DNA from: Bacteroidota bacterium
Lineage (GTDB): Bacteria > Bacteroidota > Bacteroidia > AKYH767-A > JAHEYN01
Assembly: GCA_023251555.1 (NCBI GenBank)
Contig: JAHEYN010000004.1
Location: 74,670 to 138,669, forward strand
Length of the DNA: 64,000 nt
Direction: 5' to 3'
Part shown: positions 35,863-48,356 of the stretch, piece by piece
How positions within the stretch are numbered: position 1 is the stretch's first letter
Layout of the letters: each line of letters opens with the position of its first letter
Notes under the pieces: generated by a model
Database searches by the model: none
Told to the model about the DNA's origin: nothing
What the model saw: the letters and a program-made list of their open reading frames with translations, nothing else
Made by a program: the position numbers and the translations under genes

Positions 35863-35936
35863 GGCGAGGTAGCTCAGGTGGTTAGAGCGCGGGATTCATA
35901 ACCCCGAGGTGGAGGGTTCGATTCCCTCCCTCGCTA
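35863..35936 (+). tRNA. tRNA-Met (CAT anticodon)
   Basis: A full cloverleaf: acceptor GGCGAGG with CCTCGCT (one G-T pair at the end), D stem GCTC/GAGC, anticodon CAT at 35897-35899 in a TTCATAA loop, and T stem GAGGG/CCCTC with loop TTCGATT. The anticodon stem has an A-C mismatch at its top. CCA is not encoded. The acceptor is paired at position 1, so it is not a typical initiator; an isoleucine (modified CAT) tRNA cannot be excluded. The 3' half is antisense to the C-terminal codons of the serine recombinase gene and is the attachment site of the element to its right. Confidence 0.93.
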
Positions 35937-37497
35937 CTAAACGGGATATTTCAGATAAATCATCTGGTATCCCGTTTTTCTTTTCCTTCAAAACCTTTGA
36001 CAGATAAGAAGTTACAACGATTGGAGAAATCCATCTCGGAGTTAGATATTGGTCATTTTCAATATTGTACCGAAGTCCATTGGGAAACAGCATTTTTTGA
36101 ACATTCTGTTTTTGAGAATAATCGTTAAAATCCCATGTAGTAGAGAGTTTCGAGGATAAATCTACTATAAAATTAATGGTTTTTTCAGGGTTAGATAATT
36201 TTAGGTTCGATTTTTCAATGCTTTCCTCAATGGCCCTTATTTCTGACTTAAATTTTTCAGATACCTTGTTATAAATATCCCTGTCAATTTCTCCACAGGC
36301 AAATCGCTCTTCTGTTTTATATAATTTTTCTTTGATCTCATTTAGCTGTTTAGAAAAAACTTCCTGCTTGGTTTTACTTGATGAAGTCTCTTTCTTGTAT
36401 ATGTATTCTAACGCTTTTTTATAAATATTGCTATAAGTTGAATCGGCTGATTTGTTATTAAGAAGATGAACAAAATTATTGTGCATGGTTTTTACGCTCC
36501 TGTTGCAATGGCATTTTATTTCATTGCATTTGTAATAATAAAGACCCTTCTTTTTTACAATATATCCTGAAAATGGTGATCCGCATTTTTCACATTTCAC
36601 GAATAATTTCAATGGAAGATGCTCATTTTCTTTTTTCTGTTTGTACCCACCTTTTTTATTGAGTTGGTGTACTTTTAAGAATACTTCCTTTGAAACAAGT
36701 GCAGGATGCTTTCCATCTACTATTTCTCCGTTTAGCATGTTATGAGAAATCAATCCGCAGTAAAAGGGATTTCTAAAAATTTCACTGATCCTTTGAAAAG
36801 GAAGGGTTAAACCTAATACCTTCAGCTTTTCGACAATCTGCGGATTGGAATTCCCCTCCAGCCTCCAATGAAAAGCTTTTTGAAGCACTTTCCCATTTTC
36901 GTTGATGATTATTTTCTGTTCTTTTCCTCCGTGAGTGCGATCATAAGAATATCCGGTAGGCGCTGCTCCAAGCCATTCTCCTCTTTTTAGTTTTTCCCGC
37001 ATACCATCTACACACTTCTGCATTCTTAGATCATTATCGTACTTGCTAAATATGAATTGGATGTTTTGCTGCAATACTCCGGCATGTGTGGAAACATCAA
37101 TGGGCTGTGTTACGGAAACAATGGTAACCCCTTCTTTCTTTAGCTGTGAAGAAATATAAATAGCATTCTCTCCTGAACGGCTGAAACGGTCAAGGCTATA
37201 TACAAGAATACACGAAGTTTTTTCCTTTGAATTTTTTAGAAATTTTATCATCCGGTTAAACTCATTCCGCTCATCTGTCTTTGCACTTTCATAAGTACCT
37301 CCGAAAAATCCCAATATGTGCAGGTTGTTTTTTATACCATACTCTGTACAATATTTTCTCTGAGTTTCAAGGCTCTGATTAGTGTCAGCCTGCTCTTTGG
37401 ATGAAACACGGGTATAGATCACCGCATTATTATTGCTTTTGAGATCTTGTGTGATTTTCCCTTTGGCAAATTGCTGGAATTGGTGAAAGTTTTTCAT
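35896..37497 (-). CDS. Large serine recombinase (integrase) at the tRNA
   Basis: A 533-residue serine integrase. Resolvase catalytic domain (residues ~24-165: VIYTRVSSKEQ with the nucleophile Ser, YSLDRFSRSGENA), Recombinase domain (EIFRNPFYCGLISHNML), zinc ribbon (CEKCGSPFSGY, later C-x-C pairs) and a coiled coil (~370-430). It should insert and excise the element. The last 14 codons (LVAREGIEPSTSGL) are the antisense of the tRNA-Met 3' part, and the TGA stop overlaps the anticodon. The gene therefore ends at the att site, as expected for an integrase at the element edge. It starts 9 bp after the Fic gene. A paralogue lies at 38778-40265. Confidence 0.92.
   Translation of the reverse strand: MKNFHQFQQFAKGKITQDLKSNNNAVIYTRVSSKEQADTNQSLETQRKYCTEYGIKNNLHILGFFGGTYESAKTDERNEFNRMIKFLKNSKEKTSCILVYSLDRFSRSGENAIYISSQLKKEGVTIVSVTQPIDVSTHAGVLQQNIQFIFSKYDNDLRMQKCVDGMREKLKRGEWLGAAPTGYSYDRTHGGKEQKIIINENGKVLQKAFHWRLEGNSNPQIVEKLKVLGLTLPFQRISEIFRNPFYCGLISHNMLNGEIVDGKHPALVSKEVFLKVHQLNKKGGYKQKKENEHLPLKLFVKCEKCGSPFSGYIVKKKGLYYYKCNEIKCHCNRSVKTMHNNFVHLLNNKSADSTYSNIYKKALEYIYKKETSSSKTKQEVFSKQLNEIKEKLYKTEERFACGEIDRDIYNKVSEKFKSEIRAIEESIEKSNLKLSNPEKTINFIVDLSSKLSTTWDFNDYSQKQNVQKMLFPNGLRYNIENDQYLTPRWISPIVVTSYLSKVLKEKKNGIPDDLSEISRLVAREGIEPSTSGL
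35939..35977 (+). terminator. Terminator downstream of tRNA-Met
   Basis: AAACGGGATA (35939-35948) pairs with TATCCCGTTT (35968-35977), with a nested CAGAT/ATCTG stem in the loop and a T tract behind. It ends the tRNA transcript but lies inside the recombinase coding region, so it was probably brought by the element. Confidence 0.75.
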
Positions 37498-37506
37498 GTT
37501 ATGTTT

Positions 37507-38652
37507 TTATTTATGCCTGGTTTGGAACAGATCGAGATATTTTTCAAATATAAATACCCTGTTGCGCTTATAACCCGTTTTTTCTTTCAATATATCCAAT
37601 CTTTCAAATTCATCAATAAGTCTATGAGAGGTTGCAATATTTACTTTTAATACTTTTGCCACTTCGTTAGTATCAACCAATGGTTTGCTGTATAAATAGT
37701 TCAGCAGCTCTTTTGCCAATGGAGCCCTTTTCCCCATTTGGATTATTTTCTTTTCTTCTACTTCCTGTCTTAGTTTTATGATAGCATTGAATGTTTCGAT
37801 AGAATTTTGTGCTGTTTCCTTAACACCTACTAAAAAGAACTTAAGCCATTGAATAAGATTATTCTTTGTTCTCACTGTCGTGAGATTATCGTAATAATAA
37901 TTACGATTTCGCTCAAAAAAATCCGATAAGTATAAGGATGGTTTGTGAAGAATGTTATTACTTACCAAATAAAGGGTAATCATCAATCGCCCTAACCTGC
38001 CATTACCATCTAAAAACGGGTGAATGGATTCAAACTGGTAATGGGCTATTCCCACTCGAATGAGATGTGGTACTTCTAACTCGGTATTATTTAGGAACTT
38101 TTCAAGATCGCTCATTAAATCAGAGACCTCATCATGGTGTGGTGGTATATACACAGCATCATTCAAAGAAGCTCCGCCAATCCAGTTTTGAGAGGAACGA
38201 AACTCCCCTGGTAATTTATGTTTACCTCGTACACCTTGTAAAAGTCTTTTATGCGTCTGTTTAAACAAACGATTACTTAAGGGTAATTTATCCAATTGTG
38301 CAATGGCATAATTCATTGCATCAATATAGTTATGCACTTCTTTCCAATCGTCCCGTTTTTCAGGATTGATCTGTTCCTCGCTTTGAAAGGCTTCTTCAAT
38401 AGTGGTTTGCGTTCCTTCTATCTTGCTGCTTTGCGTGGCTTCCTTGGTGATGTGCATACGGATAAAGAAATCCACGTCAGGTATGAGTATGGAAAAAGCA
38501 TTCAGCTCTCCCAATTTCCTGTCTGCTTCACTCAGCAGTTGGCTTACTTTAGAATCATTTACCAGCCAGGCATGATTAATAGGATCCGGTGAAAAGCTTT
38601 TGTAGTTATACTGCTTCTTGTATGTACCCGATTTATATTGGTTAATGTCCAT
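37507..38652 (-). CDS. Fic family protein with C-terminal winged helix
   Basis: A 381-residue Fic protein. The core motif IHPFLDGNGRLGRL (~residues 205-218) has the catalytic His and the ATP loop; such enzymes usually transfer AMP to a protein. The N-terminal SSKIEGT fits the (S/T)xxxE(G/N) inhibitory motif, so activity may be self-restrained (class II). The C-terminal ~60 residues (NEVAKVLKVNIATSHRLIDE, ILKEKTGYKRNRVFIF) resemble a winged helix-turn-helix, suggesting DNA binding. Inverted GCGAAT repeats sit just before its start. Co-oriented with both recombinases. Confidence 0.92.
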   Translation of the reverse strand: MDINQYKSGTYKKQYNYKSFSPDPINHAWLVNDSKVSQLLSEADRKLGELNAFSILIPDVDFFIRMHITKEATQSSKIEGTQTTIEEAFQSEEQINPEKRDDWKEVHNYIDAMNYAIAQLDKLPLSNRLFKQTHKRLLQGVRGKHKLPGEFRSSQNWIGGASLNDAVYIPPHHDEVSDLMSDLEKFLNNTELEVPHLIRVGIAHYQFESIHPFLDGNGRLGRLMITLYLVSNNILHKPSLYLSDFFERNRNYYYDNLTTVRTKNNLIQWLKFFLVGVKETAQNSIETFNAIIKLRQEVEEKKIIQMGKRAPLAKELLNYLYSKPLVDTNEVAKVLKVNIATSHRLIDEFERLDILKEKTGYKRNRVFIFEKYLDLFQTRHK

Positions 38653-38777: not shown

Positions 38778-40265
38778 TTATGGTTTATGCACAATAATGC
38801 TATTTATTTTCAATACATCAACTAAATTATCTTCTTTGCTATACAACAATCCATCAGGGAACAAGAAATACTGCAAGCGTTGTTTTTGCTCATAGCTTCC
38901 CTTTTCCCATAGCATGAACAGATTTTGGCAAACTTCTTTAGCATAAGCCATAAAATCTGCAAGATCATCACCTCCATTTAAAGAGTTGATTGTTTTGGCA
39001 ACGGATTCTTTTTCTTCTGTGAATTTCTCCATGAATTGTTCGTACAATGTTTTATCCAGTTCACCAATAGCAAAACGTTCTTTTAGCTTTTGTATTTTAT
39101 TTTCTATTTCACAAAACCTTTTCCTAAGCACGGCATATTCACTGGTATCCACTTTACAAAAGTGTTCAAACACATATTGCAATTGATTTTTCAATGGCTC
39201 GATAAGACTTTCATCTATTCTGAAATCATTCAGCAATTGCCTGAAATGTTCATGCAGTTTATCCTTGCTTATGTTCGACTTACAATGTGGATTATTGCAT
39301 TTGTAATAATGCTTACCCTTGTTCTTTACAAAGTACCCAGTGAAAGGCACTCCACATTGCTTGCATTTTATAAAACGCTTCAAGGGCAGGTCATCATTCA
39401 CCACCTGGTGTTTGTAATCATGCGGAACTTTGTTTACAATTTGATTGGCTTTCAGAAAAATCTCCTGGGATACCAAGGGTTCATGCGATCCCATAACGGG
39501 TTCACTGAGCAGCCCATGAGTGATTATACCGCAGTAAAATGGATTCCGGAATACTTCTGTCAGTCGTTGCTTACTTACGCTTAGCCCAAGCGCTTTTAGG
39601 CGTTTTGTTATTTCGGTATTGGTCAGGTGTTCATGTACCTTCCATAAAAAAGATTTTTGCAACAGTTCGCCCTGTTTACTAATGGCAACCACTGGTTTGT
39701 TGTTCGCATCGTGTACGTGGCAATACCCCAATGGAGCTTTGCCAACCCAATTACCTCTGCTTAAACGTTCTTTCATCCCGGTGATACACTTCGCCCGTCT
39801 TTGTTCATTGTCGTATTGGCTGAACACGAGCTGGATGTTCTGATAGAACACACCCATTGATGTTTTTGTATCCGTAGGCTGTGTTACCGAAAGAACTGAA
39901 ATACCTTTCTTGCTCAACTCTGCGATGATACCAATTGCACCGGTTCCTGAACGGGAGAAACGATCGATACTGTAAACTACGATATTGGAAACGTTGTGCT
40001 TTTTAACGAAGGCCAGCATGTTTTTAAACTCTCTGCGCTCATCCGTTTGGGCACTCTCATAGGTCCCCCCGAAACACTCCCGGATTATTAATTTTTGTCT
40101 TTCCGCAAATTCCTGGCAGTATTTTTTCTGGGTATCTAAACTCAGGTTGTTTTCTGCCTGTTCTTTGGTTGAAACACGTGTATAGATGACAGCATGGTTA
40201 TTGCTCTCTTTGCTCTGTGTACTGCCTTTCCTGAGAAAGGGCTGAAAGTTTTTTAATGTTCCCAT
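38778..40265 (-). CDS. Second large serine recombinase
   Basis: A 495-residue paralogue of the recombinase at the tRNA, sharing VIYTRVSTKEQ (catalytic Ser), YSIDRFSRSGTGA, EVFRNPFYCGIITHGLL and a zinc ribbon (CKQCGVPFTGYFVKNKG, CNNPHCKSN). A C-terminal coiled coil follows. It does not end in tRNA antisense. It could be a second integrase, an inversion or resolution enzyme, or the integrase of another element nested here. Its first 23 codons overlap the end of a small gene. Confidence 0.92.
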   Translation of the reverse strand: MGTLKNFQPFLRKGSTQSKESNNHAVIYTRVSTKEQAENNLSLDTQKKYCQEFAERQKLIIRECFGGTYESAQTDERREFKNMLAFVKKHNVSNIVVYSIDRFSRSGTGAIGIIAELSKKGISVLSVTQPTDTKTSMGVFYQNIQLVFSQYDNEQRRAKCITGMKERLSRGNWVGKAPLGYCHVHDANNKPVVAISKQGELLQKSFLWKVHEHLTNTEITKRLKALGLSVSKQRLTEVFRNPFYCGIITHGLLSEPVMGSHEPLVSQEIFLKANQIVNKVPHDYKHQVVNDDLPLKRFIKCKQCGVPFTGYFVKNKGKHYYKCNNPHCKSNISKDKLHEHFRQLLNDFRIDESLIEPLKNQLQYVFEHFCKVDTSEYAVLRKRFCEIENKIQKLKERFAIGELDKTLYEQFMEKFTEEKESVAKTINSLNGGDDLADFMAYAKEVCQNLFMLWEKGSYEQKQRLQYFLFPDGLLYSKEDNLVDVLKINSIIVHKP

Positions 40266-40452
40266 TTTCTGACACTTTACCTTTTTTCCCTTGCGGGAAG
40301 GTTTGTTGATAGTGCCGGAATAGAATGATCGAGAACGTGTTTAAACTTTCTGACAGCATTTGAGCCCGTGAATCACTTAATCCGTCTAATCCGCTGAACT
40401 GCCTTAGCTCAGCGGTTGTTATTGTTTTTATTTCAGCATTGTCATTACTCAT
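40198..40452 (-). CDS. Small protein overlapping the recombinase start
   Basis: An 84-residue protein from the Met at 40452 (MSNDNAEIKTITTAELRQFS, LSDSRAQMLSESLNTFSIIL). It has no recognised domain and is polar and helix-prone. Its 3' end overlaps the recombinase start by 68 bp in another frame, and its start overlaps the stop of the upstream small gene by 8 bp. Both overlaps point to a translationally coupled operon, which is the main support for the gene being real. Possibly an accessory or directionality protein. Confidence 0.6.
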   Translation of the reverse strand: MSNDNAEIKTITTAELRQFSGLDGLSDSRAQMLSESLNTFSIILFRHYQQTFPQGKKGKVSENGNIKKLSALSQERQYTEQREQ

Positions 40453-40654
40453 GGATGCTTTTTCTAAGGTTTTTAAACTCCCGGATAGCTCCAGCGAAAG
40501 CAGAGAACACATACTTGGAAACCCATACAACAACCACTGCACCTGCGATGTAAAGAATACCTTTCACATAGGGATTTAACTCTTGCGAATAAAGCTCTGA
40601 ACTATCGATTTGCAATGCTTCTTGCAGTTTTTCTTTTCGTGTTTTCTCTTCCAT
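40445..40654 (-). CDS. Small membrane protein of the recombinase operon
   Basis: A 69-residue protein: a polar N-terminus (MEEKTRKEKLQEALQ), one hydrophobic helix (GILYIAGAVVVVWVSKYVF, ~residues 32-50) and a basic C-terminus (REFKNLRKSIHE). First gene of the three-gene run ending in the second recombinase. No family recognised. A TACATTTG box lies 23 bp upstream. Confidence 0.6.
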   Translation of the reverse strand: MEEKTRKEKLQEALQIDSSELYSQELNPYVKGILYIAGAVVVVWVSKYVFSAFAGAIREFKNLRKSIHE

Positions 40655-40676
40655 ACCGTGATGAAATATTCAACAG

Positions 40677-40684
40677 CAAATGTA
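40677..40684 (-). promoter_or_regulatory. -7 box of the recombinase operon
   Basis: The minus strand reads TACATTTG (TAnnTTTG), with a TTG 16 bases upstream (40701-40703). The stretch from 40685 to 41020 has no gene that I can support. Confidence 0.5.
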
Positions 40685-41020
40685 AAACAGGCTAATGCTT
40701 CAAGGCAAGAAAATCAGGGAGAATCTTCGTGGCTTGTTTGTGGCATGGAACAAAAAAAGTTGTAAAGAATTGAAAATCAAGATCATTTTTTCAAAAAACG
40801 GTACAATTTTTACAAAACTAAGACAACATCAGGTATGAAAACGTTTCATAAAGGCTAATTCAGACTGATCTGGTCAGCATGAGAAAGAACGTACAAACAG
40901 TTTTTACTTTTTTGTTCTGTTTTTCATAGAAAATTTTTTGCCGAAAGCATTTAAACTTTCGTTACAATTTTTTCAGTCCATTTTTATCTTCAACATTTTT
41001 TTACAATAATCATTTTAAAA

Positions 41021-41927
41021 AGCTCCTTAAGAAACTTTTTTTCACGCAGGCCTAACAGGACAATTTTTGTAAAACGATCCTTTAAGATGCTTTTTTGTAA
41101 AACAAGTCCTTAAGGAACTTTTTTGCAGAATGTCCCCTATAGGATCAATTTTATAAAAGCGGCCCTTAAGGGCCATTTCTATACAACAGCTCCTTAAGGA
41201 GCGATTTTCTACACGAACTCCTATAGGGCTTTCTACACAGGCTCTTAGGACTTTTTTCTGCAAATGCCTTATACGGCATTTCTACACGGGTCTTATAGGA
41301 ACTTTCTGCACAATCCCTTAAGGAAAAAATACGAGGGCCTTAAGGACGTTCGTCCGCAAGCTGTAAGGAGAAAAATACAAAAGTCTTAAAGACATTTCTA
41401 CACCGGCCCTAAGGACTTTTGTCCACAGGCCCTTAAGAGAAAAACACGAAGGTCTTAAAAAGATTTGTACACCGGCCTTAAAGAGAAAAATGTGAAGGCC
41501 TTATAAGACATTTCTCCACGGCCCTTAAGAACATTTCTATGAGGGTCCTTAAGAGAAAAACCCCAAGGCCTTATAAGAGATTTCCCTGAAGGCCTTAAGG
41601 ACTTTCGTCCGCGAGCCGTAAAGAAAATATTTTTAAAGCTCTTATAGGACATCGTTTATTTTAGTCCTTAAGAACATTTATTTTCTCAGCTCCTATAAGG
41701 CCTGAATTTTCTCAGGTTGTAAAGAGCTGAATTTATTCCGGCCCTTAAGGGAAAATTTTCAGGGTTCCTTAAGAACATTTATTTTCTCAGCTCCTATAGG
41801 GCCTGAATTTTCTCAGGCTGTTAAGAGCTGAATTTATTTCGGCTCTTAAGAACAAAAGTTTTCGAACTCCTTAAGGACAAATTTTTCGAGGTCTTTAAAG
41901 AGCTTTGTTTTTCGGGCTGTAGGATTT
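41021..41927. repeat. Array of about 37 short palindromes with TTAA/TATA core
   Basis: Roughly 37 imperfect copies of a dyad-symmetric site, core YCTTAAGR or CCTATAGG, recur every 21-30 bp (about 28 bp at the left end, 22-24 bp in the middle, 24-27 bp at the right end). Several are perfect palindromes with different arms: GGCCCTTAAGGGCC (41161-41174), GCTCCTTAAGGAGC (41189-41202), CCCTTAAGGG (41742-41751), TCCTTAAGGA (41107-41116, 41868-41877) and TCTTTAAAGA (41892-41901). The arms change in matched pairs while symmetry is kept. Spacers are often similar (TTTCTACAC, GAAAAA, TTTATTTTCTCAG). No coding frame spans it. Confidence 0.9.
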
Positions 41928-42000: not shown

Positions 42001-42062
42001 TTTTACTCGAGTAAATGTGCATAAATTACTCGAGTTATTACAACTCTTTTACTCGGGTAAAT
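42001..42062. repeat. Three ACTCGAGT palindromes spaced exactly 23 bp
   Basis: TTTACTCGAGTAAA (42002-42015), ACTCGAGT (42028-42035) and TTTACTCGGGTAAA (42048-42061, one central mismatch) have centres 23 bp apart. This is iteron-like spacing and is close to the spacing of the neighbouring array, but the sequence is different. Confidence 0.85.
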
Positions 42063-42130
42063 TGAATTTATTTTTTAAAAACCGCTGGGTTTCTCTTTAT
42101 ATATTTTTTTGAAATATCGGTAAAGTAAGC

Positions 42131-42268
42131 TACTAAGTTTACTTCGTTACTAAGTGAAAAATGATGATGAAGTAATGAAGTAAGGACTTAGTAAGGATAA
42201 AAATAAAATCATTACTAAGTTATATACACTGTAAAATCAACCATTACAGAAGAATTTAGTAACGAAGT
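42131..42268. repeat. TACTAAGT repeats and 13-bp inverted repeat
   Basis: TACTAAGT occurs at 42131, 42148 and 42213, and inverted at 42186. ACTTCGTTACTAA (42141-42153) has an exact reverse complement at 42256-42268, next to the primase stop codon. The cluster is a third repeat family in the same gene-free region. Confidence 0.8.
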
Positions 42269-42282
42269 AATGTATCGTAGAA

Positions 42283-44325
42283 TTATTCTGTTATAAAATT
42301 GGTGTAATAACCCTTGATCGGATAATGGCCGTTATATTTTTGGCTTTTCAAAAAGCCCAACACCTTAAGGGCTTTCCCAATGTTATTCGTGTTCAATCGT
42401 ATGTGGGGATATTTTTCTGAGAGATTATTTTGAAATTCAGAAGATGTATAAAATATTTCATGTTTTTCTTTGGTGGCAGGTGTATAATGCTTTTGTATCA
42501 GTTCTATTTCTGATGTAGTGATCTGATAATCTTTATTAGCGGTTTCATTCTCCATGATTTCATCTGCGGTTAATTCATACTTAAATCCCGTTTTAAAAAG
42601 TGAATAGGCCTGGCTCCATACTAAATCAAGATCAATGACTTTATTGTAATTCCAGTCTATACTCTCAATTTCAAAGCAAAGCCAGCGTACTGATCCGGTT
42701 TCATCCGTTAAAAATTCTGCCTTATTTGTTGATCCCACAAAATTTGCTCTCCGGGGCATATTGGACATCGTTCTATCAAATGGCCTTCGCTGGCGGATAT
42801 TAACTCTGCTGAAGGAACTTTTTAGGGCATTAATGTCCTGTTTGCTTAAGGTAGATAATTCATCCAGGTTGATAAACATATTATCGGATAAACTCATTTC
42901 TCCGTCTTTCCCGACAATAAATGTGTCTGTATAATATTCCTTAAGAGTAGGAGGACATAACCATCGCAGAAAAGTTGTTTTACCTGTGCTTTGTTTTTCA
43001 TGGACAAGAATAAATGCGTGTTTATTGAATACATCTTCTAATAAGGCGCAGGCAATACAACGCACCAGCATTTTTTTGAAGTGCCTTTTAAAACGTTCTG
43101 GATCTTTCGCTTTGATGTGGCCTGATAATTTATCTATGTAATTCTCGCTTGTTTCTTCATTCCATTTCGGCAAGCTATCGAAGTAATCTTTAAATGGGTT
43201 ATGCACCGGAACAAAGTCGGAGCGTAACAAGGCTGAAATATTAGTGAGTGAAAATCTAATATTATTGTGTTGCAGGAGCCGGTAAATATTGTTTTCGTTG
43301 ATCTTTTTAAACTCGCTTTCTTCTTTAGCCTTACACTCTATTTCATTGGAAACCTCGTTATAGCGTATGTCATATAACTCCTGCAAATATTTTTCTACTT
43401 TCTCAAAGGTTGAAATTTTCTTATGAGGTATTTCCATTACTGGAACCGGATCATAGCTTACAATATTGGCTTCTGCCAAAAGCTTTATTTCCGGTTGTAT
43501 TCCGTCAATAATGGCATCTGCAATATCATAACCATCATTCCGCTCTGGAAATAAATTAACCTTCTTAAAATTGAGCTGATAAGCTTTTAACTTATCAATG
43601 GTGCTATTTTTATTTCCTGCCTGATCAGCATCATTGAGGTAGTAGATTTCACGATTAAATAGTACCTGAATTTTTTCATCGGTTAATCCACTTTTACCTC
43701 CGGTGGCTAACCAATCGAAATCAGGATAATAGAAACTTGCGATAACCGCTGTCTTTTCGCTTTCAACCAGACAAATGATTTTATCCTTGTTTAGCAAGTG
43801 TTCTCCATACAGACAAATGGAATATTTACTGTTAGTATCGGGAGCTTTTAATGAATAAGGTCTTTGAACCTTGTTCCTTTTACAATTGCTGGAATATTCA
43901 AAATACCGGATGTTTACATATTTTTGATGTATGTTTTGATACACATAAGCGGTTTCAAAAATATTAGTCCGCCCATTTAACCTACTGCCGACATTCCATT
44001 TCTCCAAATGTTCTTTCGGAATATTTAATTTCTCTCCTATACAGAAAATATGAAAGCTGGACATTTGATTGTTAATAGCAAGCCGGCATAATTCAGGATC
44101 CGGGAAAATAATTTGCGGCTCCAATTTTTTTGGTGACATTTCATTATTAACCTTAATAGATTCATCGGGCTTTTTATGATAGCCGCAATTGTTTACACGT
44201 TCGCATATACCGTACTCACGAGGTAAGTCAATGTAGTAGCGAAATTCGCCTTTGTGTTCACAGCTGGGGCAAGTACCCTTTTTAGCAGGCGCTTTCTCAA
44301 ATTCGTGTTTATAATCTGTTTTCAT
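42283..44325 (-). CDS. Toprim primase with VapE-type helicase domain
   Basis: A 680-residue replication protein of mobile elements. The N-terminus has zinc-finger cysteines (CPSCEHKGEF, CERVNNCGYH), then a Toprim-like domain (IICLVESEKTAVIASF, EIYYLNDADQAGN, ~200-265). The second half is a virulence-associated-E (VapE) P-loop ATPase: EKQSTGKTTFLRWL (Walker A), FINLDELSTL (Walker B), RRANFVGSTNKAEFL and SVRWLCFEIE. It likely primes and unwinds DNA when the element replicates. Its ATG overlaps the stop of the HTH gene by 4 bp. Downstream lie the three repeat families, a plausible place for its origin. Confidence 0.88.
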   Translation of the reverse strand: MKTDYKHEFEKAPAKKGTCPSCEHKGEFRYYIDLPREYGICERVNNCGYHKKPDESIKVNNEMSPKKLEPQIIFPDPELCRLAINNQMSSFHIFCIGEKLNIPKEHLEKWNVGSRLNGRTNIFETAYVYQNIHQKYVNIRYFEYSSNCKRNKVQRPYSLKAPDTNSKYSICLYGEHLLNKDKIICLVESEKTAVIASFYYPDFDWLATGGKSGLTDEKIQVLFNREIYYLNDADQAGNKNSTIDKLKAYQLNFKKVNLFPERNDGYDIADAIIDGIQPEIKLLAEANIVSYDPVPVMEIPHKKISTFEKVEKYLQELYDIRYNEVSNEIECKAKEESEFKKINENNIYRLLQHNNIRFSLTNISALLRSDFVPVHNPFKDYFDSLPKWNEETSENYIDKLSGHIKAKDPERFKRHFKKMLVRCIACALLEDVFNKHAFILVHEKQSTGKTTFLRWLCPPTLKEYYTDTFIVGKDGEMSLSDNMFINLDELSTLSKQDINALKSSFSRVNIRQRRPFDRTMSNMPRRANFVGSTNKAEFLTDETGSVRWLCFEIESIDWNYNKVIDLDLVWSQAYSLFKTGFKYELTADEIMENETANKDYQITTSEIELIQKHYTPATKEKHEIFYTSSEFQNNLSEKYPHIRLNTNNIGKALKVLGFLKSQKYNGHYPIKGYYTNFITE

Positions 44326-47479: not shown

Positions 47480-47641
47480 TTATTTTTGACTTCCCAAGTC
47501 AACCAAAAACAACAATAGCTGCAAACTTACTCTGATCCTTGCAAAAAAGTGAGTTCTGCCTTTTATCAATAATTCTATTGCAATCAATGGCAGAAAGAGC
47601 ATGAAAACTGCGGTTACCAATATTTGTTTTAGTTTCTTCAT
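47480..47641 (-). CDS. Small membrane protein, 53 residues
   Basis: The frame MKKLKQILVTAVFMLFLPLI continues to a second hydrophobic stretch (SLQLLLFLVDL), giving a basic N-terminus and one or two membrane segments. Its ATG overlaps the stop of the upstream gene (ATGA, 47638-47641), the mark of coupled translation and the main reason to call it. No family recognised. Confidence 0.5.
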   Translation of the reverse strand: MKKLKQILVTAVFMLFLPLIAIELLIKGRTHFFARIRVSLQLLLFLVDLGSQK

Positions 47642-47949
47642 GTATATTTTGATTTATATTCTTCTATAAGTTTATTATATAGGCTAAGAGCCAAGCTGTT
47701 TAATAATTCGGGGTGTTTAAAGATGTCTATGTTATTTACCGTCCGGCATTCATCCATGTACTCCTCAAAAAAATCTTCATCATCTATTGTTATTCCTATT
47801 AGTTTAAAAATGGTCTCGCTCAAATTCAGGTAATAATTGCCCGAATCCATTCCAAGTAAATCCAGTCCATTTACCAGGCGGGTGTTTGTCAGGTTGTCTT
47901 TGATGAGGCTGATGATTAGCTCTTTTTGTGATATCAAATTATTACTCAT
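47638..47949 (-). CDS. Small acidic protein of unknown function
   Basis: A 103-residue acidic, probably all-helical protein (SQKELIISLIKDNLTNTRLV, ISLNLSET-like middle, DDEDFFEEYMDECRTVNN). I do not recognise it. Divergent from the XRE regulator and overlapping the following small membrane-protein gene, so the two form a two-gene unit in the element. Confidence 0.65.
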   Translation of the reverse strand: MSNNLISQKELIISLIKDNLTNTRLVNGLDLLGMDSGNYYLNLSETIFKLIGITIDDEDFFEEYMDECRTVNNIDIFKHPELLNSLALSLYNKLIEEYKSKYT

Positions 47950-48098: not shown

Positions 48099-48134
48099 TA
48101 TATTTGTGCCAAACCAACAAGAAAAATGGCACAA
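48099..48134 (+). promoter_or_regulatory. Promoter and operator of the XRE gene
   Basis: TATATTTG (48099-48106) is a -7 match 20 bp before the start. TTGTGCCA (48104-48111) and its exact reverse complement TGGCACAA (48127-48134) flank the transcription start and run into the start codon, as expected for an autorepressor site. Confidence 0.6.
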
Positions 48135-48356
48135 ACGAATAAGAAACCTCTTAACAGGATCAAAGTTGTATTAGTTGAAAAAGACAAAACCAATAAGTGG
48201 CTGGCTAAGCAGGTAAAGAAAACACCCGTTACTGTTTCTAAATGGTGCACTAACAGTATTCAGCCTTCATTAGAGACACTTTCTGAAATCGCCAGGGCAT
48301 TGGGTGTAGATATTCGGGATTTGCTTAATCCCTCAATTTCAGGAAACGAGAGATAA
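48126..48356 (+). CDS. XRE family transcriptional regulator
   Basis: A 76-residue Cro/CI-type helix-turn-helix protein: NRIKVVLVEKDKTNKWLAKQ, then VTVSKWCTNSIQPSLETLSE and IARALGVDIRDLL, the full five-helix HTH_3 domain. It probably represses itself through the palindrome that overlaps its start and may also control the divergent small genes. Confidence 0.92.
   Translation: MAQTNKKPLNRIKVVLVEKDKTNKWLAKQVKKTPVTVSKWCTNSIQPSLETLSEIARALGVDIRDLLNPSISGNER

Follow-up and report, generated by a model that had tools for sequence, protein, structure and literature searches.

The dyad array

The window, a 64,000-nucleotide stretch of a Bacteroidota bacterium genome (contig JAHEYN010000004.1, positions 74,670 to 138,669), contains an integrative mobile element with an array of about 37 degenerate dyad units (41022 to 41927). 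The array is flanked on one side by a VapE-like gene (42283 to 44325, minus strand) and on the other by a minus-strand operon of small open reading frames (ORFs) and a serine recombinase, which runs downward from 40654. No convincing gene was found between the VapE-like gene and the recombinase operon. The unit consensus, read on the minus strand, is approximately AAGTCCTTAAGGACCT with TTAA or TATA at its center, and the minus strand of the consensus is the sense strand of the downstream operon. The near-symmetric site comprises 14 bases with the core YCYTWWARGR, and the units are 22 to 29 bp apart (mean spacing, 24.7 to 24.8 bp). A first-pass annotation of the window had described a gene-free stretch with about 37 palindromes, one about every 25 bp, and both parts of this description were borne out.

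A motif model whose training arrays came solely from L153 (the locus in genome G254), G045, G312, and G424, with the window array excluded, scored 33 sites at 7 bits or more between 41000 and 41950; in 30 dinucleotide-type shuffles of this region, the mean was 3.5 and the maximum 7. Many of the window units are imperfect palindromes. Strong palindromes barely exceeded those in shuffles (13 versus 7.8, P = 0.03), and some arrays had no excess of strong palindromes over shuffles. By its motif sites, the array greatly exceeds what chance would give. A generic palindrome-density detector failed to discriminate arrays, whereas the motif model did.

A DNA similarity search revealed no second array elsewhere in the source genome. 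Within the array, higher-order duplications span about 70, 101, and 116 bp. In two related elements, L027 and G254, the spacing grows from about 23 to 26 to 29 bp toward the promoter (Spearman 0.78 and 0.89), an increase that is less clear in the window array. Leave-one-group-out scoring showed no clear overall preference in how the array is oriented with respect to the gene. The array does not resemble a CRISPR array: its units are degenerate, its spacers are mutually related, and there are no cas genes among the tested neighbors.

Related arrays and the symmetry of their sites

Only one close relative of the VapE protein turned up in the genome collection, in L027, an uncultured Bacteroidetes metagenome-assembled genome, where the same array occupies the same position. 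Scanning 395 genomes of the class for three successive cores revealed arrays in G254, G045, and G312. When the scan was extended to three families and to a phylum-wide draw, it also detected arrays in G424, G433, G465, G466, G488, G496, and G500; the G488 array is the same locus as that of L027. No further array was found by the core pattern in the other phylum members sampled in the draw. Thus, homologous arrays, on which the first-pass proposal depended, do exist in related Bacteroidota elements (L027/G488, G254, and the methyltransferase loci described below). Their copy number ranges from 11 to 37 units. The motif model found 9 to 13 sites per 300 bp at array loci versus 1 to 3 at array-free loci of the p110 protein family considered below; the highest control, one unrelated viral contig, had 7 sites per 300 bp.

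The loci fetched for other serine recombinases of the same family (about 40 to 47% identity) lacked an array, and phage and plasmid records had no real match to it. Viral contigs that matched the core pattern were rejected as candidates, as those inspected carried other, unrelated repeats. For example, L068 (5670 to 6302) and L098 (3655 to 4287), which have the same site counts, contain clustered palindromes, such as AGCCCTTAAGGGCT in L068, that are apparently unrelated to the array.

The arrays occur in two classes of mobile element that are otherwise unrelated. The recombinase class comprises the window, L027/G488, and G254, in which the order is array, motif A (TTTTGTAAAARTTGT), promoter (TTG...TAnnTTTG), a 69-amino-acid (aa) protein, an approximately 83-aa protein, and serine recombinase 2. 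In the window, all of these features are on the minus strand. Motif A, here TTTTGTAAAAATTGT, is at 40803 to 40817, and it also adjoins the array in the other elements. A putative Bacteroidota-type promoter, identified as a consensus match only (TTG-N21-TACATTTG; 40676 to 40707), lies between the array and the operon. The first gene of the operon (40445 to 40654) encodes the 69-aa small hydrophobic (membrane-like) protein, which is 77 to 80% identical in two related elements; the second (40201 to 40452) encodes the approximately 83-aa conserved protein, to which no function was assigned; and the third (38778 to 40265) encodes large serine recombinase 2.

The methyltransferase class comprises G045, G312, G424, G433, G465, G466, and G500 (two of which are nearly identical), with a weaker array in G496 and a diverged one in G481. 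In these elements the array stops shortly before the start codon (ATG) of the gene for a 1,400- to 1,930-aa protein with DUF6908 and N6-methyltransferase domains, and the best-studied member of these giant methyltransferases here also matches DarB-like anti-restriction proteins (PHROGs). Motif A lies upstream of the array, and TAnnTTTA is found exactly 59 bp further in G312, G433, G466, G424, G500, and G045. Across 5.9 kb, the nearly identical members, G424 (locus L169) and G465 (L172), match at 99.97%. Their genomes are placed in two different families, and the match reflects either a very recent transfer or a binning error.

Two further loci differ. G467 has scattered dyads only, and G482 (L241) has a different hairpin repeat instead. 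The latter, at approximately 1160 to 1400, upstream of a diverged methyltransferase gene, repeats the unit GGTAGAG...GTTTCAAGA...TTTTCCGGG three times; its arms change in pairs and include G-U pairs. Its pattern of substitutions suggests a possible RNA hairpin repeat that replaces the array.

Neither G254, within the 15 kb fetched, nor any of the fetched methyltransferase-type elements has VapE alongside its array. The constant neighbor of the array is the operon downstream of it, before which it has a fixed place, and not VapE, which adjoins the array only in the window and in L027 and lies outside the array module. Thus, the expectation that related elements would have the array beside VapE-type primases held for L027 but not for G254 or the fetched methyltransferase elements.

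Covariation between the arms was evaluated by aligning units and shuffling each column among units; a set of 150 units from six arrays was shuffled within arrays. Arm pairs 3 to 8 were complementary in 106 cases versus 94 expected in the window units alone (P = 0.015) and in 408 versus 386 expected in the 150 units (P = 0.03), in which pairing slid by 1 to 3 columns gave nothing positive beyond a z of about 1. The central pair was the only strongly linked pair in the window units (31 versus 19.5 expected), and the same was true across the 150 units, whose central dinucleotides are TA/AT in 120 cases and TT/AA in 30 (P = 4e-15). The four-base centers are TTAA (63 units), TATA (50), TTTA (15), and TAAA (3). 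When orthologous units were compared within the close pairs G312/G433 and G424/G500, 28 arm changes were one sided and 1 was compensated. These results do not agree with the first-pass claims that the arms vary but stay complementary and that symmetry, not sequence, is selected. Arm pairs have almost no excess complementarity, sequence is conserved, and compensation is nearly absent. The consensus is symmetric and its center is constrained to self-complementarity, but the arms are not kept symmetric by compensation.

A hairpin would need paired arms and a free central four bases. The data are the opposite, which points to duplex DNA. Avoidance of TTTA and TAAA at the center, which a two-fold symmetric duplex site needs and a hairpin loop does not, counts for a protein site. 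The half-sites change singly, as expected for operators with additive half-sites.

In pairwise alignments of close pairs, dyad cores diverged less than spacers (9.5% versus 21.6%, P = 0.007; 14.8% versus 23.5%, P = 0.046). Array-to-array alignments have only 58 to 64% identity versus 82 to 87% by blastn for the flanking DNA, with the motif kept. On this comparison, the arrays diverge faster than their flanks yet preserve the motif.

Possible function of the array

The array has a symmetric consensus, independently varying half-sites, and a location before an operon, as do dyad operators. We give an even chance to the proposal that it is a cis-acting landing strip of sites for a two-fold symmetric DNA-binding protein, heading the main operon of the element. 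Sites for such a protein were among the possibilities raised by the first-pass annotation, and with the two-fold symmetric consensus we take this as the best reading. A homodimeric or otherwise two-fold symmetric protein would bind the 11 to 37 degenerate tandem sites with one dimer per site, the many bound dimers would form an extended nucleoprotein complex, and this complex might control the operon or the state of the element (silencing, induction, or maintenance). Consistent with serial sites of this kind, adjoining CTCGAG palindromes have a 23-bp spacing too. Three palindromes of the TTACTCGAGTAA type, exactly 23 bp apart, are present at the VapE-proximal end of the window array (42003 to 42060), and they are kept beside the arrays in L027 (8278 to 8336) and L153 (5724 to 5781) with a spacing of 23 to 24 bp.

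Among DNA-binding proteins, just one was seen in both classes of element: a small Cro/C1-type helix-turn-helix (HTH) protein (48126 to 48356, plus strand), encoded divergently from a gene for a 103-aa helical protein of the p110 family (47638 to 47949, minus strand). The p110 protein has four helices, no Pfam or PDB relative, and no convincing PDB fold or sequence match; the family is found in most array elements and also at array-free loci. The divergent HTH/p110 pair (p110 of approximately 105 aa) occurs alongside the array in the window, L027, G254, G312, G424, G433, G465, G466, and G500, and in G045 p110 is about 60 kb from the array on the same contig. In the class set, p110 was present in 4 of 4 array-bearing genomes versus 17 of 395 genomes overall.

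Several observations weigh against the proposed protein-binding strip. Thirteen sampled genomes have p110 and no array by the core pattern, and the fetched loci among them were also negative with the motif model. The HTH/p110 intergenic regions lack a clear array-type site. Spacing of 22 to 29 bp does not hold the sites on one helix face, the central-pair signal could partly reflect two ancestral unit types, and the lower divergence of dyad cores is less clear in more distant pairs. Furthermore, the array lies between the putative promoter and the ATG in the methyltransferase class but upstream of the promoter in the recombinase class, so the two classes do not keep one simple operator geometry. 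Because of the motif-less intergenic regions and the array-free p110 genomes, the co-occurring HTH protein is only a candidate binder, by association, and a host protein is equally possible. The motif-less intergenic regions were the reason for rejecting the HTH protein as a proven binder, and the array-free genomes were the reason for rejecting p110 as an obligate partner of the array.

It seems unlikely that the array is instead a centromere-like partition or maintenance site that anchors a partition complex and keeps the excised or replicating element, as F-plasmid parS/sopC does. The F-plasmid site has 12 tandem 43-bp repeats beside sopAB, each with a short inverted repeat bound by a dimer (PMC6238139). 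The array is similar in having tandem repeats, each with a dimer-type inverted repeat, in a single array per element, but it differs in its 23- to 28-bp units, its 11 to 37 very degenerate copies, and the lack of partition genes found nearby. Finding just one array in each tested genome, across two element types, would suit a partition site, as would a variable position relative to the promoter, which is expected of a site whose mere presence is needed. However, the neighbors annotated with Pfam, which did not include every small ORF, yielded no ParA/ParB-, ParM/ParR-, or TubZ-type gene, and the units are much less uniform than the repeats of known centromeres. A neutral or selfish degenerate tandem repeat, a minisatellite with no role for the element, is a rather improbable alternative. 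The higher-order duplications, the fast divergence, and the arrays without excess strong palindromes are what such a repeat would produce, but the motif and its place are kept in many loci, in several families, and in two element types, and in close pairs the spacers have diverged more than the dyad cores.

We are quite doubtful that the array is transcribed and acts as serial hairpins in a leader or noncoding RNA. The TAnnTTTA motif 59 bp after motif A, with the array downstream, indicates that the array may be a 5' leader in six methyltransferase loci, and folding of the window array beats shuffles on both strands (z of -7.3 and -9.5). However, good folding is expected of any palindromic array, and in G312 the folding of the sense strand does not exceed that of shuffles (z of -0.8; antisense, -2.7). 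On the sense strand of the methyltransferase class, A-C mismatches outnumber G-U pairs (58 versus 16), the reverse of RNA conservation; compensatory stem changes are almost absent; the recombinase-class array lies upstream of the recognized promoter; and there was no Rfam match at gathering score. The RNA hairpins suggested by the annotation are thus not supported. A replication origin with iteron-like sites is very unlikely. Iteron origins, such as RK2 oriV and F oriS, have a few asymmetric direct repeats, about 22 to 23 bp apart, beside a rep gene. The array resembles them in that its tandem sites stand in AT-rich mobile-element DNA free of genes, with a spacing of 22 to 24 bp through much of the array, and AT-rich repeats and the CTCGAG palindromes adjoin it. 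In contrast to iterons, its sites are two-fold symmetric rather than plain direct repeats, they lie beside differing genes, and 37 sites far exceeds known iteron origins. A VapE-linked origin, for which the annotation took the adjacent primase as a clue, was rejected because the array is found without VapE.

Among regulatory systems, MetJ met boxes and the tandem ARG boxes of ArgR consist of a few abutting or phased sites. The array is like these multioperator arrays in having serial degenerate dyad sites ahead of an operon but unlike them in its up to 37 sites and its drifting, unphased spacing. We found no description of such an array in the open-access literature (subscription papers were outside the search), consistent with the annotation, which knew of none. 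Arrays of dyad sites are already known in general, and this one is a new family among them.

The same fast-diverging, motif-keeping array heads a recombinase operon in one class and a DarB-like anti-restriction methyltransferase operon in the other, which suggests that these Bacteroidota elements have a regulator or maintenance factor in common. Tentatively, the array may be an undescribed cis module that integrative elements of Bacteroidota share horizontally. Its long, unphased run of dyad sites, read by one host or element protein, would build a nucleoprotein structure that controls or segregates elements of dissimilar gene content. Identification of the protein that reads the array would expose a common control point for mobility and anti-restriction functions.

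Other features of the elements

Just past the stop codon of the VapE-like primase/helicase gene, the window has AT-rich repeats of the TTACTAAGT and TTACTTCGTTACTAAG type (42120 to 42280), which are also present in L027. In G254 (L153, 7924 to 14404) a cluster takes the place of VapE. It includes a 905-aa probable ATP-binding protein, which no Pfam or PADLOC model matched, and an SbcD-like nuclease, recognized by eye; the two proteins after the 905-aa protein matched no PADLOC model.

Large serine recombinase 1 (35896 to 37497, minus strand) is at the element end. A tRNA-Met gene (35863 to 35937) overlaps the 3' end of its gene, so that the last codons, for the C terminus VAREGIEPSTSGL, are read from the tRNA antisense. 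This overlap is probably an attachment site of the element; a shared-word search did not find a second attachment repeat. The slot between the two recombinase genes holds a differing gene in each element: a Fic gene in the window (37507 to 38652), an AbiEi-type gene in G254 (L153, 1767 to 2663), and, in L027 (12533 to 13513), a gene that by eye is HipA-like.
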